This document shows positions 1 through 35,593 of a stretch of 39,510 bases of DNA, one piece after another. The stretch spans positions 1-39,510 of the forward strand of contig JACSRU010000086.1 in NCBI GenBank assembly GCA_014879575.1, read 5' to 3'. Below the pieces are notes generated by a model that did no database searches, was not told the origin of the DNA, and worked only from the letters and a program-made list of their open reading frames with translations. The DNA is from Chthoniobacterales bacterium. GTDB lineage: Bacteria > Verrucomicrobiota > Verrucomicrobiia > Chthoniobacterales > Terrimicrobiaceae. Made by a program: the position numbers and the translations under genes. Every line of letters begins with the position of its first letter. The stretch's first letter is position 1.

Positions 1-73
1 CACGATTCTCAATACCCCAGCCCTTCGGACTGGGCTATTGAATCATGCGCCTTTGGCGCAGGGCATCTCATCT

Positions 74-128
74 TTGCACTTATTGGAGATGCGCCCCGGC
101 GGAAGGGATGCATCTCCGATAATTGCAA
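74..128. repeat. Large imperfect palindrome, first copy of a direct repeat
   Basis: The arms are 74-92 and 110-128, and the loop is 93-109. The arms match at 17 of 19 positions, and one of the two differences is compatible with a G-U pair in one strand. The core GATGCGCCCCGGCG at 88-101 spans the end of the left arm and the loop. An upstream GCATCTC at 63-69 could pair alternatively with the left-arm GAGATGC, giving two mutually exclusive folds. Confidence 0.7.
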
Positions 129-191
129 GAAAGCTGGCGAGCATTCGCCCGTGAGCAGAAGCAGCGGGGCAAGCTGCCCACGCTCCGTTGG

Positions 192-223
192 TTGCACAAA
201 ACGGCGATGCGCCCCGGCGAAAG
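192..223. repeat. Second, degenerate copy of the 74-105 repeat
   Basis: TTGCAC and GATGCGCCCCGGCG occur here with exactly the same 14-nt offset as at 74 and 88, followed by a similar AAG tail. About 26 of 32 positions agree. The copy lacks the matching right arm, so it is a partial unit. It lies about 70 nt upstream of the lgt start. Confidence 0.6.
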
Positions 224-292
224 CGTTCAGGCGTTTATTGGGCGATGTTTTGAGGTTGTCAGGAGCTTAACGGGTGGCGATGTTCGGGGGCT

Positions 293-1237
293 GTGTTGCT
301 GGCGTATTATGTTCATCATTTCAGTCCGTTTCTATTGGATTTCGGAAATGGCTTTGGGTTGCGGTGGTATGGCCTTGCGTATGTGGCGGCGTTTCTTGTC
401 GGGTATTTGCTCTACACGCGCCTCGTCCGGCAGGGCTATGGGGATCTGGCTCCGGATCAGGTGGGCGATTTCATCACCGGCGTGGCGATCTTTGGGGTGA
501 TTCTCGGCGGCAGGCTGGGATACATGTTCCTTTACGATTGGGCGAATTTTTCGGCGAATCCGTTCGTGTTTTTCAAATTTTGGGATGGCGGGATGTCCAG
601 TCACGGGGGAATGATCGGCATCGTTGTCTTCACGCTCATCTATGCCAGGCGAAAGCATGTTTCCTGGCTCAACATCGGGGACAATCTTGTGGTGGTCGCG
701 CCGATCGGGCTATTTTTTGGACGCTGCGCCAATTTCATCAATGGGGAACTTTTCGGGCGTGTGACCGGTGTTTCCTGGGCGATGCAATTCCCGAAGGAAC
801 TTTTTGATGCCCCCCCGGAGACCGTCCAACTCGCGGTGTCTGAGGCGGTGACTCTCAATCCCGGGTGGACCACGGTGACGGCCATCGTGGAGAACGTCCA
901 AAACTCCCCCGCTCTCCGCGCGCAACTGGCCGGCACACTCTCCCCGCGGCATCCGTCACAGATTTACGAGGCGTTCCTGGAGGGGGTGCTGCTCTTTGTC
1001 CTCCTCTACACGCTGCGCACGCGGTTCCGTCTTCCGAACGGGGTTCTGACCGGCGTCTTTTTTGTGGCTTATGCGGTTCTCCGGATCATCGGGGAAATCT
1101 TCCGACATCCGGATGCCCCGATGACGCTGGGGCTCTCCCGGGGACAGTTTTTGTCACTCTTTCTCGTGATTCTGGGAGCCGGATTTTTGGTGTATGCCAT
1201 TCGCAAGCCCACCTGGGCGCCGAAATTCCGGAATTGA
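293..1237 (+). CDS. lgt: Prolipoprotein diacylglyceryl transferase
   Basis: Lgt is an inner-membrane enzyme that moves a diacylglyceryl group from phosphatidylglycerol to the lipobox cysteine of prolipoproteins, the first step of lipoprotein maturation. The 314-residue product has several hydrophobic segments and the family signature GRCANFINGELFGR near residue 144. It also has the upstream GGRLGY stretch and the late RHPSQIYEA motif, all typical of Lgt. The start is a GTG at 293; the frame is closed at 251-253 and offers no upstream ATG. A TTG at 296 would sit better spaced from the GGGGG at 286-290, so the exact start is uncertain by one codon. Substrates are plentiful: at least four lipobox proteins are encoded in this window. 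An M29 peptidase gene follows after 31 nt. Confidence 0.95.
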   Translation: MLLAYYVHHFSPFLLDFGNGFGLRWYGLAYVAAFLVGYLLYTRLVRQGYGDLAPDQVGDFITGVAIFGVILGGRLGYMFLYDWANFSANPFVFFKFWDGGMSSHGGMIGIVVFTLIYARRKHVSWLNIGDNLVVVAPIGLFFGRCANFINGELFGRVTGVSWAMQFPKELFDAPPETVQLAVSEAVTLNPGWTTVTAIVENVQNSPALRAQLAGTLSPRHPSQIYEAFLEGVLLFVLLYTLRTRFRLPNGVLTGVFFVAYAVLRIIGEIFRHPDAPMTLGLSRGQFLSLFLVILGAGFLVYAIRKPTWAPKFRN

Positions 1238-1268
1238 TTTTTCCTGAGAGGGGGAGAGATTCGACGAA

Positions 1269-2387
1269 ATGTACGACGCCCGCTGCGACAAATTGGCCGA
1301 TGTTTTAACCCGCCACTCCACCAAACTCGGGAAGGGGGAGAATGTGCTCATTGAAATTTTCGATGCGCCGGACGAGATGGCGATTTCGCTGATCCGGGCC
1401 GTGCGGGCCCGGGGGGCGGTTCCCTTCGTGACACTGCACCATTCCCGCATCGCGCGGGAACTTTCCCTCGGCGCAACGGAGCCGCAACTTGCGGTGTCGA
1501 GCGGGGTGGAACTTCTGCGCATGAAAAAAATGCAGGCCTACATCGCGGTGAGGGGCAGCCATAACATCACGGAAATGTCGGATGTCCCGGATGAGAAGAT
1601 GCGGCTCATCACGGGAAAAATGCGTTCGGTGATGGATTGGCGGATCAACCGGACCAAGTGGGTCGTGCTCCGCTGGCCGACTCCGGCGATGGCCCAGCAG
1701 GCACAGATGAGTACACCCGCATTCGAAGATTTCTTTTTCAAGGTCTGCACCCTGGACTACTCGCGGATGGCGCCCGGCATGGAAGCACTCAAGGCACTCA
1801 TGGACAAGACCGACCGGGTGCATCTCAAGGGGCCGGGCACCGACCTCCGGTTCTCGATCAAGGGGATCGGCTCGGTGACTTGTGGGGGAGACCGAAACAT
1901 CCCGGATGGGGAGGTTTTTTCCTGTCCGGTGAAAACCAGCGTCGAGGGACATGTCACCTTCAACGTGCCGAGCATTTATCAGGGCCAGGCCTTCGACGGG
2001 GTGCGCCTGGAGTTTTCCAAGGGCCGCATCTGCAATGCCACCGCCAACAACACGGCCGCCCTCAACAAGATTCTCGACAGCGATGCCGGAGCACGCTTCA
2101 TCGGGGAATTCAGCCTCGGATTTAATCCCCACATCCTCCACCCGATGCGGGACATTCTTTTCGACGAAAAGATCGCGGGATCGTTTCACTTCACACCGGG
2201 GCAGGCCTACAAAATCGCCGGGAACGGGAATACCAGCAGGATTCACTGGGACATGGTGTGCATCCAGCGCGCGGACTACGGGGGCGGCGAAGTCTGGTTC
2301 GATGGCAAGTTGATCCGCAAGGATGGGATCTTTACCCTGCCCGCCTTGAAAAAATTAAATCCCAATTTTCTTCTCGGGAAGCGGTAG
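1269..2387 (+). CDS. M29 family metallo-aminopeptidase
   Basis: The 372-residue product matches the thermophilic-type aminopeptidase family M29 (AmpS/PepS-like), cytoplasmic dinuclear-metal exopeptidases that release N-terminal amino acids. The order of putative metal-site segments fits the family: a Glu in [12 protein letters not shown], a Glu in [13 protein letters not shown], a His in AGSFHFTPG, and the closing SRIHWDMV segment with the His-x-Asp pair. There is no signal peptide. A purine-rich GGGGGAGAGA lies upstream of the ATG at 1269. The rnc start follows the stop by 4 nt, so the two are probably co-transcribed. Substrate preference cannot be read from the sequence. Confidence 0.88.
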
Positions 2388-2391
2388 TGGC

Positions 2392-3114
2392 ATGCGGACT
2401 TCCTCGATCATGAATCCGCTGGAAGAGCGGATTGGCTACAAGTTTCGCAACGGATTATTGCTGGCGGAGGCGCTGACGCACCCGAGCATCTCCCTCGAGA
2501 GAAAGGACTATCCCTTCGACAACCAGCGGCTGGAGTTCCTTGGAGATGCCGTCATTCAGGTGGTGGTCACGGAACACCTGTTCCGGATGTTTCCGGACTT
2601 CGATGAGGGACGCATGACAAAACTCCGCACCCGGATTGTCTCCCGCATGGCCCTTCGGGAAAGGGCCGTCGCCTTGGATCTCGGGAGCTTTCTTATGATG
2701 GGTCGCGGCGAGGAGGCCAGCGGGGGCCGGGAACGCGCCTCCAATCTGGCCGATGCCTTCGAGGCGGTGGTGGGCGCCATTTACCTCGATGGCGGATTTG
2801 AGGCCTCCCGGATTTTTCTGCTTCGTCAGATGGAGGAAGTCTTTGCCGATCTGGCCAGCCAGCCGGAGGAGATCAATCCGAAAGGCTCTCTTCAGGAGAC
2901 GCTCCAATCCCTGGCGCCAAACGCCCCGGTTTACGAGTTGCTTTCCCAAACCGGCCCCGAGCATTCCAAGCGGTTTGTCTGCCGTGTGGTGTGGAAGGGA
3001 CACGAACTGGGTCGCGGAGAGGGGCTGAGCAAGAAGGAAGCCCAGGTAGCGGCTGCCGTCAGCGCACTGGAGCAACACCTTTGGGAGAAGCGTCGAAAGG
3101 TGACAACCACATGA
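2392..3114 (+). CDS. rnc: Ribonuclease III
   Basis: RNase III cleaves double-stranded RNA, for example in rRNA maturation. The 240-residue product has an N-terminal RNase III domain with the signature RLEFLGDAVIQ (E48, D52) and the second acidic motif NLADAFEAVVGAIYLDGG (D121, E124). A C-terminal dsRNA-binding domain ends with the usual KKEAQVAAAVSAL helix. The length is normal for the family. The first ATG is at 2392; a second in-frame ATG at 2410 (MNPLEERIGYKF) is nearer to the conserved N-terminus and is a plausible alternative. The stop overlaps the next start as ATGA, indicating translational coupling to the downstream membrane-protein gene. Confidence 0.96.
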   Translation: MRTSSIMNPLEERIGYKFRNGLLLAEALTHPSISLERKDYPFDNQRLEFLGDAVIQVVVTEHLFRMFPDFDEGRMTKLRTRIVSRMALRERAVALDLGSFLMMGRGEEASGGRERASNLADAFEAVVGAIYLDGGFEASRIFLLRQMEEVFADLASQPEEINPKGSLQETLQSLAPNAPVYELLSQTGPEHSKRFVCRVVWKGHELGRGEGLSKKEAQVAAAVSALEQHLWEKRRKVTTT

Positions 3115-3662
3115 TTTACCAATTGAACCTGCAAACCACCGGACTGGCCACAGGGCTTCTCCTCCTCTTGTCCCACGTCTTCGCCCTGGTGCGTCCGGAC
3201 CAGACCATCCAATGGGCGAAAGCCTTTCCCCGTTCGCGGGGTGCGGCCGGAGTTCTTCTCCCGATTGTTGCCGTCTGGAGCTTTCTGCTGGTGAGGTCCA
3301 TCGATCTCGGGGAATTTTCCCCGCTCAGGAACATGATCCTCGTCGCCATTGTTGTCGGCACCGTACTTTCCTGGATCTATGTGCCGGAATTTCTGGCGGT
3401 GAGGACGCTCGGCATGCTCCTGTTGCTGGCGGCTGAGCCGTTGCTTGAGTCCGCCGTCCTGCGGCATGAGCCTTCGCGTCTGCTGTTGGTGGTGATTGCG
3501 TATGTGTGGGTGATAGCCGGTTTGTTTTTTGTGGGCATGCCTTATTTGCTCCGCGACGGGATCCAATGGGTGACCGCAAGCCGGACACGTCTTAAAATCG
3601 GAGCCCTTGCGGGGGTGGTCTATGGGCTCGCGCTCGTGGGGTGTGCGTTGGCCGTTTGGTAG
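3111..3662 (+). CDS. Small polytopic membrane protein of unknown function
   Basis: The 183-residue product has about five or six hydrophobic segments separated by short charged loops (for example VRPDQTIQWAKAFPRSR). It has no recognisable catalytic motif. I do not recognise the family. The start is chosen at 3111 because its ATG overlaps the rnc stop by 4 nt; the same frame extends further upstream only inside rnc. It is the last gene of the lgt-M29-rnc run and converges on recG, whose stop is 5 nt away. Function is unknown; the only inference is inner-membrane location. Confidence 0.75.
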   Translation: MIYQLNLQTTGLATGLLLLLSHVFALVRPDQTIQWAKAFPRSRGAAGVLLPIVAVWSFLLVRSIDLGEFSPLRNMILVAIVVGTVLSWIYVPEFLAVRTLGMLLLLAAEPLLESAVLRHEPSRLLLVVIAYVWVIAGLFFVGMPYLLRDGIQWVTASRTRLKIGALAGVVYGLALVGCALAVW

Positions 3663-3667
3663 GAGGC

Positions 3668-6256
3668 TTACCCTTCGAGGATTTCCGTGCGGGCGGAAAG
3701 ATTGTTCAAAAACTCGCGATGGGGGGTGTGGGCGGGGTCTGCGAGGTGGGGATCCTTCTCCAGCAACTCTCTGGCCGCCTGCCGGGCCTCGGTCATCAAC
3801 TCCCCGTCACGCAGGAGATCGCCCAATCGCAGGGGGGGAAGTCCGGCTTGGGCGGTGCCCAGGATGTCTCCGGGACCGCGCAATTGGAGGTCGGCTTCGG
3901 CAATTTCAAACCCGTCGGATGTGCGCTCCAACACGGCGAGTTTTTCCTTGGCGGACTCACCGGGATCACGCTGCAGAAGGATGCAGTAGGATTTCTCGGC
4001 ACCGCGACCGATCCTCCCGCGGAGCTGGTGGAGTTGAGAGAGGCCAAAACGGGCGGCTTCCTCGATCAGCATGATGCAGGCATTGGGCACATCAACCCCC
4101 ACCTCAATCACCGTCGTCGCCACAAGCACGGAGAGATTGCCATCCCGGAACTGGCGCATCACGAGTTCCTTCTCTTCGGAAGTCAGACGTCCATGGGCCA
4201 GTCCCACCCTGGAAGGCGCGAGGAGCTTTGTCCATTTTTCAAACTCTTCGCGGGCGGCTTTGGCGTCCAGTTTCTCCGACTCCTCGATCAACGGATAGAC
4301 CACGTAAGCCTGACGGCCTTCGGCGATTTTCGTTCGGAGAAAATTGAGGATGTCGGGGAGCTTTGCCGGTTCCCGCACGGCGGTGAGCACCTTTCCGCGA
4401 CCGGCAGGTTTTTCGCGGAGGATCGAGACATCGAGATCACCGTAAAGTGTCTGGGTAATGGTGCGCGGGATCGGGGTGGCTGTCATCACCAGCACATCGG
4501 GCGCATCACCACGCGCAATGAGACGCGAGCGTTGGAGAACACCAAATTTGTGCTGTTCGTCAATGACGATGAGCCCGAGCTTGTGAAGTTCCGCCCTGTC
4601 GAAGAGGAGGGCATGCGTGCCGACGACCAGCGGCGGGATCCGGCGGGACGCCGGATCCGACACGCGGGACGCGTGTGCTCCCCGGAGGTCTTCACGGCCT
4701 GGCCACCAGACCCAAGGGTAGTCTTCGTTCGCAGGCACGATCTTGCTGTCCCAGGGATTGCGCGTGATATAGGAAAACTTCTCTTGGAGGTCGGATTCCG
4801 ACCGGATGAGCCGGTCGAAGGATTCCTTTTCCCAGACTGGGCCTGTTTTGCCATTCGCCCTGTTGATCTCGTGGGCTGTGAACGATTTGATGGAATGAAG
4901 GATGCCGGTAAGTGGATGAAATCCGCCAGCTTCATTTAAGGAAGGTTCGATGAGCAAGTGAACATGATCCGGCATCACACAAACGGCATAAAGGTGATAC
5001 CGCCTGCCGTTTTCATGAAGAATCGAACTCCGTATGATGTCCCGATCTTCTTCCGATAGTGCCGTTCTGTCATGAGTCGAGAACGTAACGGCATACTTCG
5101 CCCAAGGTCGTTCAAAGTGCGGAAGATTTCTCTTCGAATAGCGCGTGCCGTCACCTCCGGGGAGCACACCCGTCCCGGGTGTGGCGTCCGGCGTCCCGCC
5201 GGACGACTCTTTCCTCGTAGCCGTGCGCAGCACCACACCAATCCCAAGGGGATCCAGAATTCTGCGGAAGTTCAAATAATGTTGTTCGGCGAGGATCTGG
5301 GTGGGTGCCATGAGGGCCGCCTGCCAACCGGATTCCGCCGCCTGCACCATGGCATGCAGCGCGACGAGGGTTTTTCCCGAGCCAACATCTCCCTGGAGGA
5401 GACGGTTCATCCGGTGTGAGGAAGCAAGATCGGCGGAAATTTCGGCAATGACCTGACGCTGGGAGCCTGTCAGTTCAAACGGCAGGGCCTCCACAACCTT
5501 TTTCTGAAATTCGCCTGTCCCAGGCTTGGGAGTTCCCCCGGAATTCCGCGTCGCGGCATGCCGGGCACAAACAACCAACTGGATCCCAAAAAACTCCTCG
5601 CGCACGAGGCTGTTCCTCGCGGCCGCCTGTTCCTGCCAGGTGTCCGGGAAATGCACGTTCCGCCAGACGTTTTCGGAGACGGGATTCCCCGGCCAGAGGA
5701 GGGGAATTGTGGCGGGATCGGTCGCATCGAGCGCCCGATGGATCAACACCCTGAGCATCCGCGCAGTCAGGCCGTCACCGGCCGGATGCACCGGTGTGAT
5801 CCGATCGAAGTGGATCGAGCGCTCGGCATCTTCCTCGAGGATTTCAAATTCGGGATGTTCCATGACCACCTGGTGATGACGAACTCTCGGCTTCCCGAAG
5901 ACGATGATTTGCTGGTCGCCGGTGATCATCTTCTGCACCCACGGCATGTTGAACCAACGGCAGATCAGCGGGGAGCCAAGCAACCCGGCCGATTCGTCCT
6001 CGATGCGGGCCTCAAAAATCCTGCGGGCGCCGAATCTTCGATAGGCGGTTTTTTTCACAACACCAAACAGGCAGAGGGGCGCTTCGGAGGGTCCGTCCGG
6101 AAAGCGGTCGAATTTGATCCGATCCTCGTAGCGGCGGGGAAAGTGCTTCAGGAGGTCGCCGAGCGTGAGCAGGCCCAGTCGTCGCAGGGAGGAAATGCGC
6201 TGCCGGGGCACCCATTCCAAATCTTCGAGGTTTGTGGAGGCAGGGAGGGGAGTCAT
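3668..6256 (-). CDS. recG: ATP-dependent DNA helicase RecG with an in-frame RAYT insertion
   Basis: RecG remodels stalled forks and branch-migrates Holliday junctions. All helicase landmarks are present: Walker A GDVGSGKT (289-296), motif Ia APTQILAEQH (317-326), motif II DEQHKFG (566-572), TATPIPRT (592-599) and QLRGRIGRG (744-752). The protein is 862 residues against roughly 690 for typical RecG. The excess is one block of about 190 residues (about 351-540) lying between motif Ia and the VVGTHALL segment, where normal RecG has a short loop. The block is a complete REP-flanked Y1/HUH transposase that keeps the reading frame open throughout. Removing it leaves a normal-sized RecG. The start ATG overlaps the recJ stop by 4 nt. 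Whether the fusion protein is an active helicase, transposase, both or neither cannot be told from the sequence. Confidence 0.93.
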   Translation of the reverse strand: MTPLPASTNLEDLEWVPRQRISSLRRLGLLTLGDLLKHFPRRYEDRIKFDRFPDGPSEAPLCLFGVVKKTAYRRFGARRIFEARIEDESAGLLGSPLICRWFNMPWVQKMITGDQQIIVFGKPRVRHHQVVMEHPEFEILEEDAERSIHFDRITPVHPAGDGLTARMLRVLIHRALDATDPATIPLLWPGNPVSENVWRNVHFPDTWQEQAAARNSLVREEFFGIQLVVCARHAATRNSGGTPKPGTGEFQKKVVEALPFELTGSQRQVIAEISADLASSHRMNRLLQGDVGSGKTLVALHAMVQAAESGWQAALMAPTQILAEQHYLNFRRILDPLGIGVVLRTATRKESSGGTPDATPGTGVLPGGDGTRYSKRNLPHFERPWAKYAVTFSTHDRTALSEEDRDIIRSSILHENGRRYHLYAVCVMPDHVHLLIEPSLNEAGGFHPLTGILHSIKSFTAHEINRANGKTGPVWEKESFDRLIRSESDLQEKFSYITRNPWDSKIVPANEDYPWVWWPGREDLRGAHASRVSDPASRRIPPLVVGTHALLFDRAELHKLGLIVIDEQHKFGVLQRSRLIARGDAPDVLVMTATPIPRTITQTLYGDLDVSILREKPAGRGKVLTAVREPAKLPDILNFLRTKIAEGRQAYVVYPLIEESEKLDAKAAREEFEKWTKLLAPSRVGLAHGRLTSEEKELVMRQFRDGNLSVLVATTVIEVGVDVPNACIMLIEEAARFGLSQLHQLRGRIGRGAEKSYCILLQRDPGESAKEKLAVLERTSDGFEIAEADLQLRGPGDILGTAQAGLPPLRLGDLLRDGELMTEARQAARELLEKDPHLADPAHTPHREFLNNLSARTEILEG
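4639..4689. repeat. REP arm (left), two GGGAC-loop hairpins
   Basis: The arm contains two adjacent 6-bp hairpins, TCCGGC-GGGAC-GCCGGA and ACACGC-GGGAC-GCGTGT, with the same five-base loop, followed by the foot GCTCCCCGGAGGT. It is an inverted copy of 5153-5203, with 46 of 51 positions identical. On the recG strand it codes for residues around REDLRGAHASRVSDPASRR. Confidence 0.9.
5153..5203. repeat. REP arm (right), two GGGAC-loop hairpins
   Basis: In the recG sense it reads TCCGGC-GGGAC-GCCGGA then ACACCC-GGGAC-GGGTGT, then the same foot as the left arm. The second stem differs from the left copy at two positions that pair with each other, so the hairpin is kept. It codes for residues SGGTPDATPGTGVLPGG of the RecG fusion. 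Confidence 0.9.
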
Positions 6257-7941
6257 GCGGACCTCCGCACCCCGAGAATCCGCATTTGTGCTTCCGTGCG
6301 CCCCTGCCAGCAGTTCCAGTCCAGAGTGTAGGCCAGATCCCAGGGCGGGCGGGGAAGATCGGAAGCCTTCGCATTGAAAAAAACAGCCGGCACGCGGCGT
6401 CGGCCAACCGGAAACTCAAATTTCAGATGTTTGTCCTTCATCGTGCGCGGAGCTCCGGATGGGCTCACGGAGCGGGTGTAGAGGACCGGCTGCGGGTTTC
6501 CGGCTCCGAAAGGCTCAAGGAAATCCTGGGCCTCCAAGAGCGTGAAATCGAGATCCGGAAGCTCGATCTCCGCATCCAACCGGAGTCGGGGAGTCAGGAT
6601 TTCCGCATTGGCCAGTTTTCTCGCTCCGGTTTCAAAGGCCTCGCGAAAGGCGGGAAAGGCTTTCTCATCCATCGTCAGTCCGGCCGCCATGTCGTGGCCC
6701 CCAAATTTTTGGAGATGATCCGAGCAGCCGTTCAAGAGGTCCACAAGGGAGAGGCCCTCGATGCTTCGCCCGCTGCCCTTGCCCTGTCCTGACGCATCGA
6801 AGCCCACAATAAATGTCGGGCGGTGGCGCTGGCGCATCACTCGCGATGCCACGACTCCCAGCACCCCGACATGCCAGTCCCGCCGACCTGCGACGATCGT
6901 TGTGTCCCGAGCCGCTTCAAAATTTTGTTCCACCCACTGCTCGGCATCGCGGACGACCGCCTTTTCGACATCCTGTCGCTCCCGGTTGTGGGCATCGAGA
7001 TTGGCGGCGAGGCGGGCGGCCTCATCCGGATCATCGGTCAGAAGGAGGCGGAGGGCCTCCTGTGCCGGTCCCAGCCTGCCAGCGGCGTTAATCCGCGGGC
7101 CGAGCCGAAATCCCACATCCGACGTTCGCACCGGCGCCGAAACTCCGGAGACGCGCATCAGGGCGGCGATCCCAACCCAGCGGGTCGCGGCCATCCGCTG
7201 AAGCCCGTGCCGGACGAAGATTCGGTTTTCCCCGGTGAGGGGAACGATGTCCGCCACCGTGGCCAATGCCACCATGTCCAGGTAATGCCGGAGATCAAGA
7301 TCGGCGACCGGCGAAAGTTTCTGCATCGCATGGGCGAGTTTGAAGACCACGCCGGCACTGCACAGGTAATGGAAATTGTTCCCGCATTTGGGATTCACCA
7401 GAGCCGCGCAGTCCGGGCGTTCCGATCCCGGTTCATGGTGATCGAGCACAATCACCTCGACGCCCCGCGAGCGAAGGGAGGCAATTTCCCGGACGGATGT
7501 CGTCCCGCAGTCCACGGCAAGCAAAAGTTCCGGGCGGTGCAACTCGCAACACCTCTCGATTCCGGCCGGACTCAATCCGTAGCCTTCCTCGACCCGGAGC
7601 GGCAGAAAACACTCCACCTTTCCACCGAATGCCTTCAAAACCCGCGCGAGCAAGGCCAGTGAGGTGATGCCGTCCACGTCATAATCGCCATAGAGGACAA
7701 TCCTCCGTCCCGCCCGCACCGCCGCCCAGACGCGTTCCGCCGCCACATCCATCTGGGGCAACGCCTCCGGTGGCTGAAGGGATTTCAGTTTTGGATGCAG
7801 AAATTCCCGTGCCTCCGCGATGCTGCCATGCCCTCTTTGCGTCAGAAGAACTCCAAGAAACGCCGGGATTTCGAGTTCGCGGAGGAGCTGGCCTGTCAGG
7901 AGCGGATCCGTGGCCGGGGGCAAAATCCATCTGCGATTCAT
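6253..7941 (-). CDS. recJ: Single-stranded-DNA-specific exonuclease RecJ
   Basis: RecJ degrades single-stranded DNA 5' to 3' in recombination and mismatch repair, using two metal ions held by a DHH-family core. The 562-residue product shows the expected motifs: DYDVDGITS (86-94), VDCGTTS with D144, and the DHH triad at 167-169 in VLDHHEPGS. The DHHA1 segment follows with GSGRSIEGLSL and KFGGHDMAAGLTM. A C-terminal OB-like part ends near the WDLAYTLDWN motif. The length is typical. The stop overlaps the recG start as ATGA, so the two repair genes form a tight operon. The start ATG at 7941 faces a divergent lipoprotein gene 46 nt away, and that gap must hold any promoters for both. Confidence 0.95.
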   Translation of the reverse strand: MNRRWILPPATDPLLTGQLLRELEIPAFLGVLLTQRGHGSIAEAREFLHPKLKSLQPPEALPQMDVAAERVWAAVRAGRRIVLYGDYDVDGITSLALLARVLKAFGGKVECFLPLRVEEGYGLSPAGIERCCELHRPELLLAVDCGTTSVREIASLRSRGVEVIVLDHHEPGSERPDCAALVNPKCGNNFHYLCSAGVVFKLAHAMQKLSPVADLDLRHYLDMVALATVADIVPLTGENRIFVRHGLQRMAATRWVGIAALMRVSGVSAPVRTSDVGFRLGPRINAAGRLGPAQEALRLLLTDDPDEAARLAANLDAHNRERQDVEKAVVRDAEQWVEQNFEAARDTTIVAGRRDWHVGVLGVVASRVMRQRHRPTFIVGFDASGQGKGSGRSIEGLSLVDLLNGCSDHLQKFGGHDMAAGLTMDEKAFPAFREAFETGARKLANAEILTPRLRLDAEIELPDLDFTLLEAQDFLEPFGAGNPQPVLYTRSVSPSGAPRTMKDKHLKFEFPVGRRRVPAVFFNAKASDLPRPPWDLAYTLDWNCWQGRTEAQMRILGVRRSA

Positions 7942-32732: not shown

Positions 32733-33305
32733 ATGCCCGGCGGGGTGCATCGTCGGCGAAAGCCGCCCGCCCGACTTCCTTCGGCGGAGTTGATAAGGGT
32801 TGTCGGCAGGATTTTGGGTGCCGAGGTGGAAAAACATCCGAATCCCAGGGAAATCGATCACCTCTGGATTCGGATTCAGGCAGACGGCGAGGTCGTTCTT
32901 TCCATCAATACGTCCTCCAAGAGGAACCGACTGGCGGGGTTCGACGCAAGAATTCGTGTGGGAGTGATTCGCGGGGAGTGGGAGGTTCTCCCGCCGAGTG
33001 GCACCTGGGTTTGTGCCTCTAACGATTATGCGGAATTGGAAAGCCAAACGAATGTCTTCTTCGAGCACTACGAACGTGAGCCGCTGGAAAATCTTCTTCT
33101 GGATCGCTGTCGGAGAGCCTGCCTTGTGGAAGTTTGGGGGGCACCCTTCCGACGGCAGGTGTCGGGCGTTCACCAGATCCACTGTCGGTGGGCGAGCTGT
33201 GCGGTGCCGGAGAGCCTTCACGGACGCGATGGCGCGGTGAAATTCTATTTTCAAGCCGGACAGGTAACCGAACACTTTCTGTTCAAGTTTTGTGGCCAGC
33301 CGTGA
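32733..33305 (+). CDS. Small unknown protein coupled to comEC
   Basis: The 190-residue protein is basic at its N-terminus (HRRRKPPARLPS) and then mixed alpha/beta (RVVGRILGAEVEKHPN, DHLWIRIQADGEVVLSINTS). It carries several Cys and Trp residues (CASND, RCRRACLVEVWG, CRWASCAVPE). No family is recognised and there is no signal peptide. The ATG at 32733 is 3 nt after the previous stop; a GTG at 32730 is also possible. The stop TGA overlaps the comEC start GTG (GTGA), so translation is likely coupled. The start codon lies inside a small GATGC/GCATC hairpin (32732-32751). Confidence 0.7.
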   Translation: MPGGVHRRRKPPARLPSAELIRVVGRILGAEVEKHPNPREIDHLWIRIQADGEVVLSINTSSKRNRLAGFDARIRVGVIRGEWEVLPPSGTWVCASNDYAELESQTNVFFEHYEREPLENLLLDRCRRACLVEVWGAPFRRQVSGVHQIHCRWASCAVPESLHGRDGAVKFYFQAGQVTEHFLFKFCGQP

Positions 33306-35593
33306 GTGTCCATCCTCCGATTAACCGGCAACGGCTGCCATTTTTTGGACTTCTGCTTGCTGCTGTCGCAGGCATCCTGATTGCTGATTTCACGGACTGG
33401 CCATCGTTGGGTTTCCTGATTCCCGCGATCCTCCTGGCAATGGCGGGGGTTGTGTTGGTGCGGGGACCCTGGATTTTCCTGTCCGTGGCCTGCGCCTTTG
33501 CCTGTGTGCATGTCTGGCAGACGAGGGAATCCCCGTCGCAACGTCTTGCCGACAGTGTCGGCGACGAAAAAATCCTGGCGATGGCCAAGGGGCGGGTGGT
33601 CACGGATCCGGTTCCCTATGGGGCAATGCACGAGCGGTTCACGCTGGCGGTGGAGGAGATCGGATGGGAGGGGAGAACGCTTTTCCCCTCCGCGCGCGTG
33701 GCTGTCATTGCGCCGATCCCCGCACCGGCCCAGGGCGACTTGGTGTCGTTAACCGGCAGCCTGCAGGAAATCGCCGGGCCGCGGAATCCGGGGGAGTTCG
33801 ACGCCCGCGCTTGGATGGCCCGAAGCGGCATCTTCAACCAGATCGAGGTGGCCGCCGCAGAGGATATGAGCATCCTTCGCAAGGCCTCCGGGTATTCCCT
33901 GATCCGCCTGGCCAACCGCTCCCGGGAGTGGATGGAAAAAACGCTGAGACTGGGAATCTCGGAGGATCCCGTTGTTTGCGATTTTCTCGCCGGCATGGTG
34001 CTTGGCGTGACGGCGTCAATCCCCGACTCTCTTCAACAGGAATTTCGGAACACGGGCACCTTCCACCTTTTCTCAGTGAGTGGATTGCATGTCGGAATGA
34101 TCGCCCTGATTCTCTGGCAGGCACTCAAGATGGCCGGGGTCAGCCGACCGTGGGCAGTGGCGTTGATCATTCCCAGTCTGTTCTTTTATGCCCTGCTGAC
34201 CGGTTGGAAGCCGTCCAGTCTGAGGTCGGCGACCATGTCGGCGATCTTTTTGATCGGCCTGACCGCCTCACAACGGCCGGTTCCAATCAACTCGCTCGGC
34301 GCGGCGGCTTTTTTCATCCTGGTGCAATGGACGAACGAAATTTTCAATCCGGGCTTTCAACTGTCCTTTCTGGTGGTGGCCGCGATTTTGTTACTGGCAC
34401 TGCCCCTTCACGATGGGATCCGGAGGCACGTGCATCCGGATCCTTTCGTGCCGCGCCGCCTGTGGACGTGGTGCCAGAAACAGTCGGCGGGATTGGTGGA
34501 AGGGCTCGGCGGACTCGTTGCCGTCTCGGTGGCCGCGTGGATCGGCTCCCTCCCGCTGACGCTCTACTATTTCCATCTGATTTCCTTCTCGGCCCTGCCG
34601 GCCAATCTGCTCGTCGTGCCGCTGGCGTTCCTCATCATGGTGACCGCTGTGCTGGCACTGTTTGGCGGAATTTTCAGCGTGACGGTGGCCGCGATTTTCA
34701 ACAATGCGAACTGGCTGTTTTCCCAGATTCTTCTCTGGGTCATCCACCTGATGTCCTGTCTGCCCTATTCGTTTGTTTATGTCGGCAGACCGGCACCGGC
34801 ACCGGTGGTCGTCACAGTGTTCGATTTCGGAGCCGGAGGAGGAGCGGCGATTGAATCCGACGGCGCGATCTGGCTGCTGGACTGCGGGCCCAAGTGGCAA
34901 CTGGACCGTGTGATTCTGCCGTGGCTGCGCAGCCGGGGAAAATCCGCTCCCGAAGGGTTGATTCTGACCCATGGCGACGCGCGGCATATCGGCGCGGCCG
35001 AAGAGTTGATCACAGACAACCGCCCCGGAATCATTGTCGAATCCATGCTCGATGACCGTTCGTCGCAACGTCAACGCATCAAACAAACGATGGAAGAACT
35101 CGGAATTCCGAAATCGTTGCACCGCGCGGGAGATCTTCTCCGCCTCTCGGATTCCGCCACCCTGAAAATTCTGTATCCCCCCACGGGAATTCTACGGAAT
35201 GTGGCCGACGACAAGGCGCTCGTTGTGAAGTTGGATGCCGGGAGTGCGAGCATTCTTTTTCTTTCCGACACCGGGGAGTCGGTCTGGGAGTGGTTGCGAG
35301 CCAACGCGGCTCCCGAATTGTCGGCGGACGTGATCGTCAAGGGAACTCCCCGGTCGGGAATTCCGCTGGACTTGGAGTTCATTGATGCGGTGAAACCCAC
35401 GTTGATCATCTCCACCGCCGCCCATTTTCCCGAGAGTGAGCGCATGGATGTCGCTTGGTTGGAGCATGTTGGGAAGCGGGGAATCCGGGTCTTTCGTCAG
35501 GATGTCACGGGTGCCGTGCGAATCGAAATCCAACCCTCCGGATTTCAGGCATCCGGATTTTATAATGGGGAACAATTCCCGGAGTCTGAGTAA
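33302..35593 (+). CDS. comEC: ComEC/Rec2 competence channel
   Basis: ComEC forms the inner-membrane channel for single-stranded DNA in natural transformation. The 763-residue product has two hydrophobic segments at the N-terminus, an OB-like DUF4131 region with the family signature GPRNPGEFDARAWMARSGI (about 158-176), the Competence core with FHLFSVSGLHVGMIAL and about eight further membrane segments, then a C-terminal metallo-beta-lactamase-like domain. In that domain the usual SHPHADHIGG is LTHGDARHIGA, so two metal ligands look changed. The start is a GTG at 33302 overlapping the upstream stop; the longer open frame back to 33134 lies within the preceding gene. No comEA or pilus genes are nearby. 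Confidence 0.92.
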   Translation: MSVHPPINRQRLPFFGLLLAAVAGILIADFTDWPSLGFLIPAILLAMAGVVLVRGPWIFLSVACAFACVHVWQTRESPSQRLADSVGDEKILAMAKGRVVTDPVPYGAMHERFTLAVEEIGWEGRTLFPSARVAVIAPIPAPAQGDLVSLTGSLQEIAGPRNPGEFDARAWMARSGIFNQIEVAAAEDMSILRKASGYSLIRLANRSREWMEKTLRLGISEDPVVCDFLAGMVLGVTASIPDSLQQEFRNTGTFHLFSVSGLHVGMIALILWQALKMAGVSRPWAVALIIPSLFFYALLTGWKPSSLRSATMSAIFLIGLTASQRPVPINSLGAAAFFILVQWTNEIFNPGFQLSFLVVAAILLLALPLHDGIRRHVHPDPFVPRRLWTWCQKQSAGLVEGLGGLVAVSVAAWIGSLPLTLYYFHLISFSALPANLLVVPLAFLIMVTAVLALFGGIFSVTVAAIFNNANWLFSQILLWVIHLMSCLPYSFVYVGRPAPAPVVVTVFDFGAGGGAAIESDGAIWLLDCGPKWQLDRVILPWLRSRGKSAPEGLILTHGDARHIGAAEELITDNRPGIIVESMLDDRSSQRQRIKQTMEELGIPKSLHRAGDLLRLSDSATLKILYPPTGILRNVADDKALVVKLDAGSASILFLSDTGESVWEWLRANAAPELSADVIVKGTPRSGIPLDLEFIDAVKPTLIISTAAHFPESERMDVAWLEHVGKRGIRVFRQDVTGAVRIEIQPSGFQASGFYNGEQFPESE

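Follow-up and report, generated by a model that had tools for sequence, protein, structure and literature searches.

A REP-RAYT-REP element in frame inside recG of a Chthoniobacterales bacterium and its relatives in other housekeeping genes

Results

The recG locus

The window analysed, that is, the whole stretch of 39,510 nucleotides from a Chthoniobacterales bacterium, contains a recG gene interrupted in frame by a RAYT. The features of the locus, in the direction of transcription, are the following.

6253 to 7941, minus strand: recJ, directly upstream of recG
3668 to 6256, minus strand: recG, a single frame of 862 codons carrying the RAYT (ORF and profile matches), the sole recG of the genome
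5204 to 6256, minus strand: RecG part 1, residues 1-351, with the wedge, motif I (GDVGSGKT) and motif Ia (APTQILAEQH)
5153 to 5203, minus strand: upstream REP arm, translated (SGGTPDATPGTGVLPGG), with hairpins at 5187-5203 and 5165-5183, then CTCCCC
4694 to 5146, minus strand: RAYT (Y1/HUH) domain, residues 371-521 (profile, alignment and fold match)
4958 to 4966, minus strand: HUH motif H431-V432-H433 (alignment)
4769 to 4771, minus strand: catalytic Tyr496 (alignment)
4639 to 4689, minus strand: downstream REP arm, translated (DLRGAHASRVSDPASRRI), with GGGGAGC, then hairpins at 4660-4676 and 4639-4655
3671 to 4638, minus strand: RecG part 2, with VGTHALL, motif II (DEQH), motifs III-VI and the C-terminus of domain 3

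The 862-aa ORF contains no stop codon. Its product scored 744.6 bits with the NCBIfam model for RecG (NF008168, cut-off 718), in a match split in two that flanks residues 344-543; domain searches returned the complete RecG set (wedge, DEAD, Helicase_C and dom3_C) and all RecG motifs are present. Codons 352-539 form an intact REP-RAYT-REP element, located between motif Ia (residues 317-326) and motif II (residues 566-569) and immediately ahead of the conserved VGTHALL. The initial annotation, made from the letters alone, had described such an element in frame at this position, with its HVH at 431-433, Tyr496 and inverted REP arms, and had proposed that it entered a loop of RecG; all of this was borne out by the analyses reported here.

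The recJ-recG order was also found in the relatives G042, G050 and G027, and in the window rnc lies near recG on the opposite strand. No match indicating plasmid or phage carriage of the locus was obtained, and the PHROGs search gave zero matches. A second recG, proposed earlier as something to look for, was sought in the genome (assembly 97.7% complete) and none was found. As read from the sequence, the cell has to produce its sole RecG with the RAYT in it, unless the RAYT is removed; we infer that it does produce this fusion and that the fusion acts as a helicase.

The RAYT domain and its REP arms

The NCBIfam model REP_Tyr_transpos (NF047646, cut-off 80) matched residues 380-515, with 82.3 bits in a six-frame scan of the genome and 77.5 bits, just under the cut-off, when the whole fusion protein was the query. 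H431, H433 and Y496 are all intact. Modelled alone by AF2, the RAYT gave a pLDDT of 91, and its closest fold match in the PDB was 4er8 (E 3.8e-7), the E. coli TnpA_REP in complex with a REP hairpin. By NCBIfam and best fold match, the domain is of the RAYT type, not the IS200 type. The AF2 model of the fusion showed the RecG parts and a folded RAYT domain, with residue blocks within 391-480 at pLDDT 73-84; the linkers at residues 352-382 and 519-538, largely translated REPs, were of low confidence.

The two arms are 51-nt inverted repeats with 90% complementarity, each composed of two predicted hairpins (folding z -2.0 and -3.1), and both are read in frame within recG. Their order is reversed compared with most relatives, the CTCCCC/GGGGAG tags pointing inward, so that the window arms are not the outer ends that a canonical element would have. 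No further copies of the window arms were found in its own genome, nor was a dispersed REP population: the REP core, with at most one mismatch, gave nine matches, two of them the arms themselves, versus four for the control.

In relatives, the homologous unit starts with (G)GG(G/T)AGC and ends with GCT(A/C)CCC, i.e. it runs from GGGTAGC/GGGGAGC to GCTACCC/GCTCCCC. The alignment of RecG-embedded with free-standing copies, from which the element ends were deduced, spans GGGTAGC to GCTACCCA and stops there. A GTAG tag is present in some relatives.

The element is open at both ends. Most copies have neither an ATG just upstream of the RAYT nor a stop ahead of the distal REP. In 68 of 75 copies, the 32 codons preceding the core contained no in-frame ATG, and none of the eight free-standing copies had one (0/8). 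In the free copies inspected, the start codon lay outside the element, and even in most free copies the reading frame continues across both REPs. With no near ATG and no stop, the RAYT would be translated chiefly, if not exclusively, as a domain within the frame it has entered. In-frame GTG or TTG codons, which could start a separate RAYT, occur in many copies (in the window, one GTG without an SD-like motif), making a separate weak RAYT start possible.

Distribution of close relatives among host genes

Relatives of the RAYT were collected with a nine-row alignment, used in an order-wide scan of 213 genomes, a scan of named genomes and region retrieval, yielding 100 close members; most of the genomes compared are MAGs. 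The best matches of the initial search already lay nearly all within long frames. Of the close members, 92 were in frame within identifiable host genes and eight were free-standing. RecG was the most frequent host (42 copies, which answers the earlier suggestion to scan for the same insertion), followed by AlaRS (24), MetH (14) and ThrRS (6), and a few resided in CarB, PriA or a restriction enzyme of the MmeI type. Group B, a set of more distant RAYTs, occupied LeuRS, ValRS, CarB and IspG. Hosts in Planctomycetota include IleRS, PurH, GcvP and a RarA-like protein. One or two sites per host gene cover nearly all cases, and a genome may hold several RAYTs.

The eight strongest matches phylum-wide (E below 1e-50) were all located in frames of 730-1316 aa. 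Other RAYT subfamilies of the same genomes, used as internal control, were mostly found in frames of about 120-430 aa. In Verrucomicrobiota, with further cases in Planctomycetota, this RAYT clade lives almost entirely in the frames of other genes.

Some loci showed other arrangements. A metH frame (L192, G175:C150, positions 3-3692) carries two in-frame RAYTs at different MetH sites, and L086 is an AlaRS in which the RAYT occupies another, second site of this host. In L052, L053, L056, L101, L116 and L222 the RAYTs lie in or beside restriction-enzyme-like frames, which are non-essential hosts (the MmeI type was shown for L101 and L222), and in the Planctomycetota loci L119, L131, L139 and L142 the RAYT is found beside the C-terminal portion of a frame encoding an RdgB-like NTP pyrophosphatase.

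Filled, empty and scarred RecG loops

Alignment with RecG of other genomes, which the initial annotation had recommended as a way to find the empty site, showed that APTQILAEQH and VGTHALL are separated by a short variable loop, without RAYT and in some cases with REP scars. This one loop was used in all RecG cases in which it could be read, and also in L277, from another order. Within the same genera of family f8, recG occurs about as often with the insert as without it, and three of the uninterrupted loops bear REP scars (L255, L265 and L266). Two f8 genomes, G163 and G169, contained recG on two separate contigs, once fused and once unfused, most likely two strains binned together.

In-frame scars without RAYT were found in L265, L266 and the same-genus relatives G003 and G001. 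In the latter two, REP arms occupy the same codons as the element of the window, which indicates that the site had been occupied earlier; either a RAYT would have been lost from these loops or a REP pair arrived first.

The loops of L158 and L176 are composite, with extra REP pairs next to the resident RAYT, and suggest several rounds of insertion. In the order of the window, the stretch before VGTHALL is variable and unlike that of T. maritima RecG even where there is no RAYT, and may itself have been shaped by past insertions.

Assembly chimerism was ruled out as a source of the fusions, since insertions in this one loop recur across many assemblies of independent origin and across more than one order, and the pattern is repeated in a genome on a single contig, with a RAYT inside IspG.

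Phylogeny and selection

The distances between RAYTs were hardly correlated with those of their RecG hosts (Mantel r 0.10, versus 0.77 between the two halves of RecG). When RAYT clade labels were mapped onto a tree built from 37 fused RecGs, they changed 12 times, compared with 11.5 when shuffled, and the starred branches of the RecG tree alone force 7-8 label changes. The pair L168/L181 is an example: the RecG proteins differ by 3.7% and the resident RAYTs by 43%; host DNA next to the insert is 96-97% identical upstream and 91-93% downstream, and the RAYT DNA 66%. The resident RAYT does not follow the phylogeny of its host RecG.

In the RAYT tree, moderately supported with stars on 17 of its 115 inner branches, copies from ThrRS, AlaRS and MmeI nest in one starred clade, MetH groups with RecG, and free copies also group with RecG. 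Because copies from different host genes nest together, the element must change hosts.

The embedded RAYTs are under purifying selection, with a median dN/dS of 0.12 (18 pairs), compared with 0.10 for the host part. By alignment columns, the second His of the HUH motif is present in 100 of 100 rows, the first in 97 and the Tyr in 95; all catalytic residues are intact in 92 of 100 copies, a count that supersedes the 72 of 99 given by a strict regular expression. The eight copies lacking a catalytic His or Tyr still have an open frame. Such a mixture of apparently active and dead residents in open frames fits a selfish element and not a required nuclease domain.

Alternative explanations

The main rival is homologous recombination, by which RAYT cassettes would travel with imported recG DNA through natural competence and without catalysis by the RAYT. 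The insertion site is constant, and its conserved flanks could guide recombination. A ComEC-like ORF in the same window (33134-35593, plus strand; TIGR00361 below its cut-off) points to possible competence. However, the discordant sisters L168 and L181 keep high host identity flush to the insert, with no foreign tract at 100-bp resolution, and this absence weakens the explanation. RAYTs of the same clade, moreover, reside in different hosts and as free copies, beyond the reach of recombination between flanks, and the catalytic residues are kept in 92 of the 100 copies. We consider this explanation unlikely.

The initial annotation had also put forward a domesticated helicase-nuclease, in which the RAYT would provide RecG with a ssDNA-nicking activity for fork processing. 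RecG and RAYT are both DNA enzymes, the RAYTs are under purifying selection and the window copy retains its catalytic residues. This proposal was not supported, given that RAYTs of the same kind reside in AlaRS, ThrRS, MetH, CarB, LeuRS and IspG, that the RecGs of close relatives are empty or contain an unrelated RAYT, and that four RecG-embedded copies (L183, L216, L223 and L237) lack a catalytic His or Tyr; domestication is thus very improbable.

We find it equally hard to accept a one-off insertion tolerated by chance and without wider meaning, since it is contradicted by the recurrence of the element in 42 RecG, 24 AlaRS, 14 MetH and 6 ThrRS genes. The length of the loop does vary naturally, and the GC3 of the RAYT (58.8, compared with 69-71 for recG, a difference of 10.6 points) is what would be expected of a recent arrival. 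The recent tolerated insertion proposed at the outset is thus half borne out: this composition fits it, but the REP sequence at the same codons in two same-genus relatives shows that the site was occupied before.

Least credible is removal of the insert, whether spliced out of the protein or the RNA or bypassed in translation over paired REP arms. The inverted arms could pair in the mRNA, and the spread over housekeeping genes is intein-like. Nothing needs to be removed, however, for the frame to stay open and in phase, the same arms flank free copies that lack any surrounding protein, and the arm peptides vary among clades and hosts with no common junction residues.

Discussion

These results probably describe a homing-like, non-splicing mobile element that is read in frame and uses housekeeping proteins as carriers, rather than a domesticated RecG-nuclease. 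The comparisons show the in-frame state, the common sites, the discordance between host and RAYT, the scars and the purifying selection. The mobile unit would consist of a RAYT, a Y1/HUH ssDNA transposase, between two sets of REP hairpins. It would repeatedly insert into one and the same set of tolerant loops in housekeeping genes; in the window this is the RecG loop that separates motif Ia from motif II. The element would persist in the host gene because it is read through in frame; insertions out of frame in housekeeping genes would be purged by selection. Loss by in-frame deletion would leave REP scars, and the loop could then be entered again. Expressed within the host protein, the RAYT would bind, nick and join REP hairpins on ssDNA and re-enter the same loops; we infer that this activity is what most likely drives the moves. 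Against the proposal we weighed the reversed arms of the window, compared with the canonical element, and its genome without dispersed REPs.

Known RAYTs are mostly single-copy and housekeeping-like, with "no evidence of tnpAREP mobility" (PMC8266576). They have been described as the first domesticated bacterial transposases, without evidence of the transposase gene moving (PMC8266576, PMC8049555), and reported to be vertically inherited (PMC8049555). E. coli TnpA_REP nicks and joins REP hairpins in vitro (PMC8266576). The elements described here resemble RAYT/TnpA_REP proteins with their REPs (REPtrons, e.g. 4er8) in the HUH/Y1 fold, the catalytic residues and the flanking inverted GC-rich hairpins; they differ in being translated within other proteins, in that several may occur per genome, and in being uncorrelated with host gene phylogeny. 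IS200/IS605 transposons share the related Y1 fold (matches to 2xma, 2f4f and 2vjv), whereas the present element is not a separate gene equipped with a start and a stop of its own.

Palindromic DNA in frame inside functional genes is known from intragenic REPs, found in housekeeping and repair genes including those of Opitutus terrae, a member of the Verrucomicrobia (Di Nocera 2013, PMC3733652), and from Rickettsia palindromic elements. Those insertions are short (about 20-30 codons, up to 82) and without transposase, whereas the loops described here house an entire RAYT element. Inteins and homing endonuclease elements likewise occupy fixed in-frame sites of housekeeping genes, with cycles of invasion, decay, loss and re-invasion of the same site and residents discordant with their hosts. 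Unlike inteins, the present element has an HUH transposase domain and its REP scar stays in the protein; domain and profile searches of the window fusion gave no intein family match or splicing motif.

Within the open-licence PMC literature, no previous description of whole RAYTs in frame in housekeeping proteins was found, and it is this residence that is new relative to known RAYTs; the absence of a report in that literature is not proof. A survey of TnpA proteins dropped unexpectedly long ones as fusions or annotation errors (PMC6006769), and surveys may have missed embedded RAYTs for this reason.

Whether these elements make up a distinct class of selfish DNA seems to us evenly balanced. 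Such a class would be a homing transposon without start, stop or splicing that survives as a translated domain in housekeeping proteins of Verrucomicrobiota and probably Planctomycetota, its HUH enzyme acting from within the host protein on the REP ends and re-invading the same loops. The family as described provides a bacterial parallel to inteins, minus the splicing. Its comparative data record RAYT mobility, in sites that are fixed or empty, in scars and in exchanges among host genes that are nearly identical, and it offers a natural experiment on how housekeeping enzymes tolerate insertions of 200 residues.
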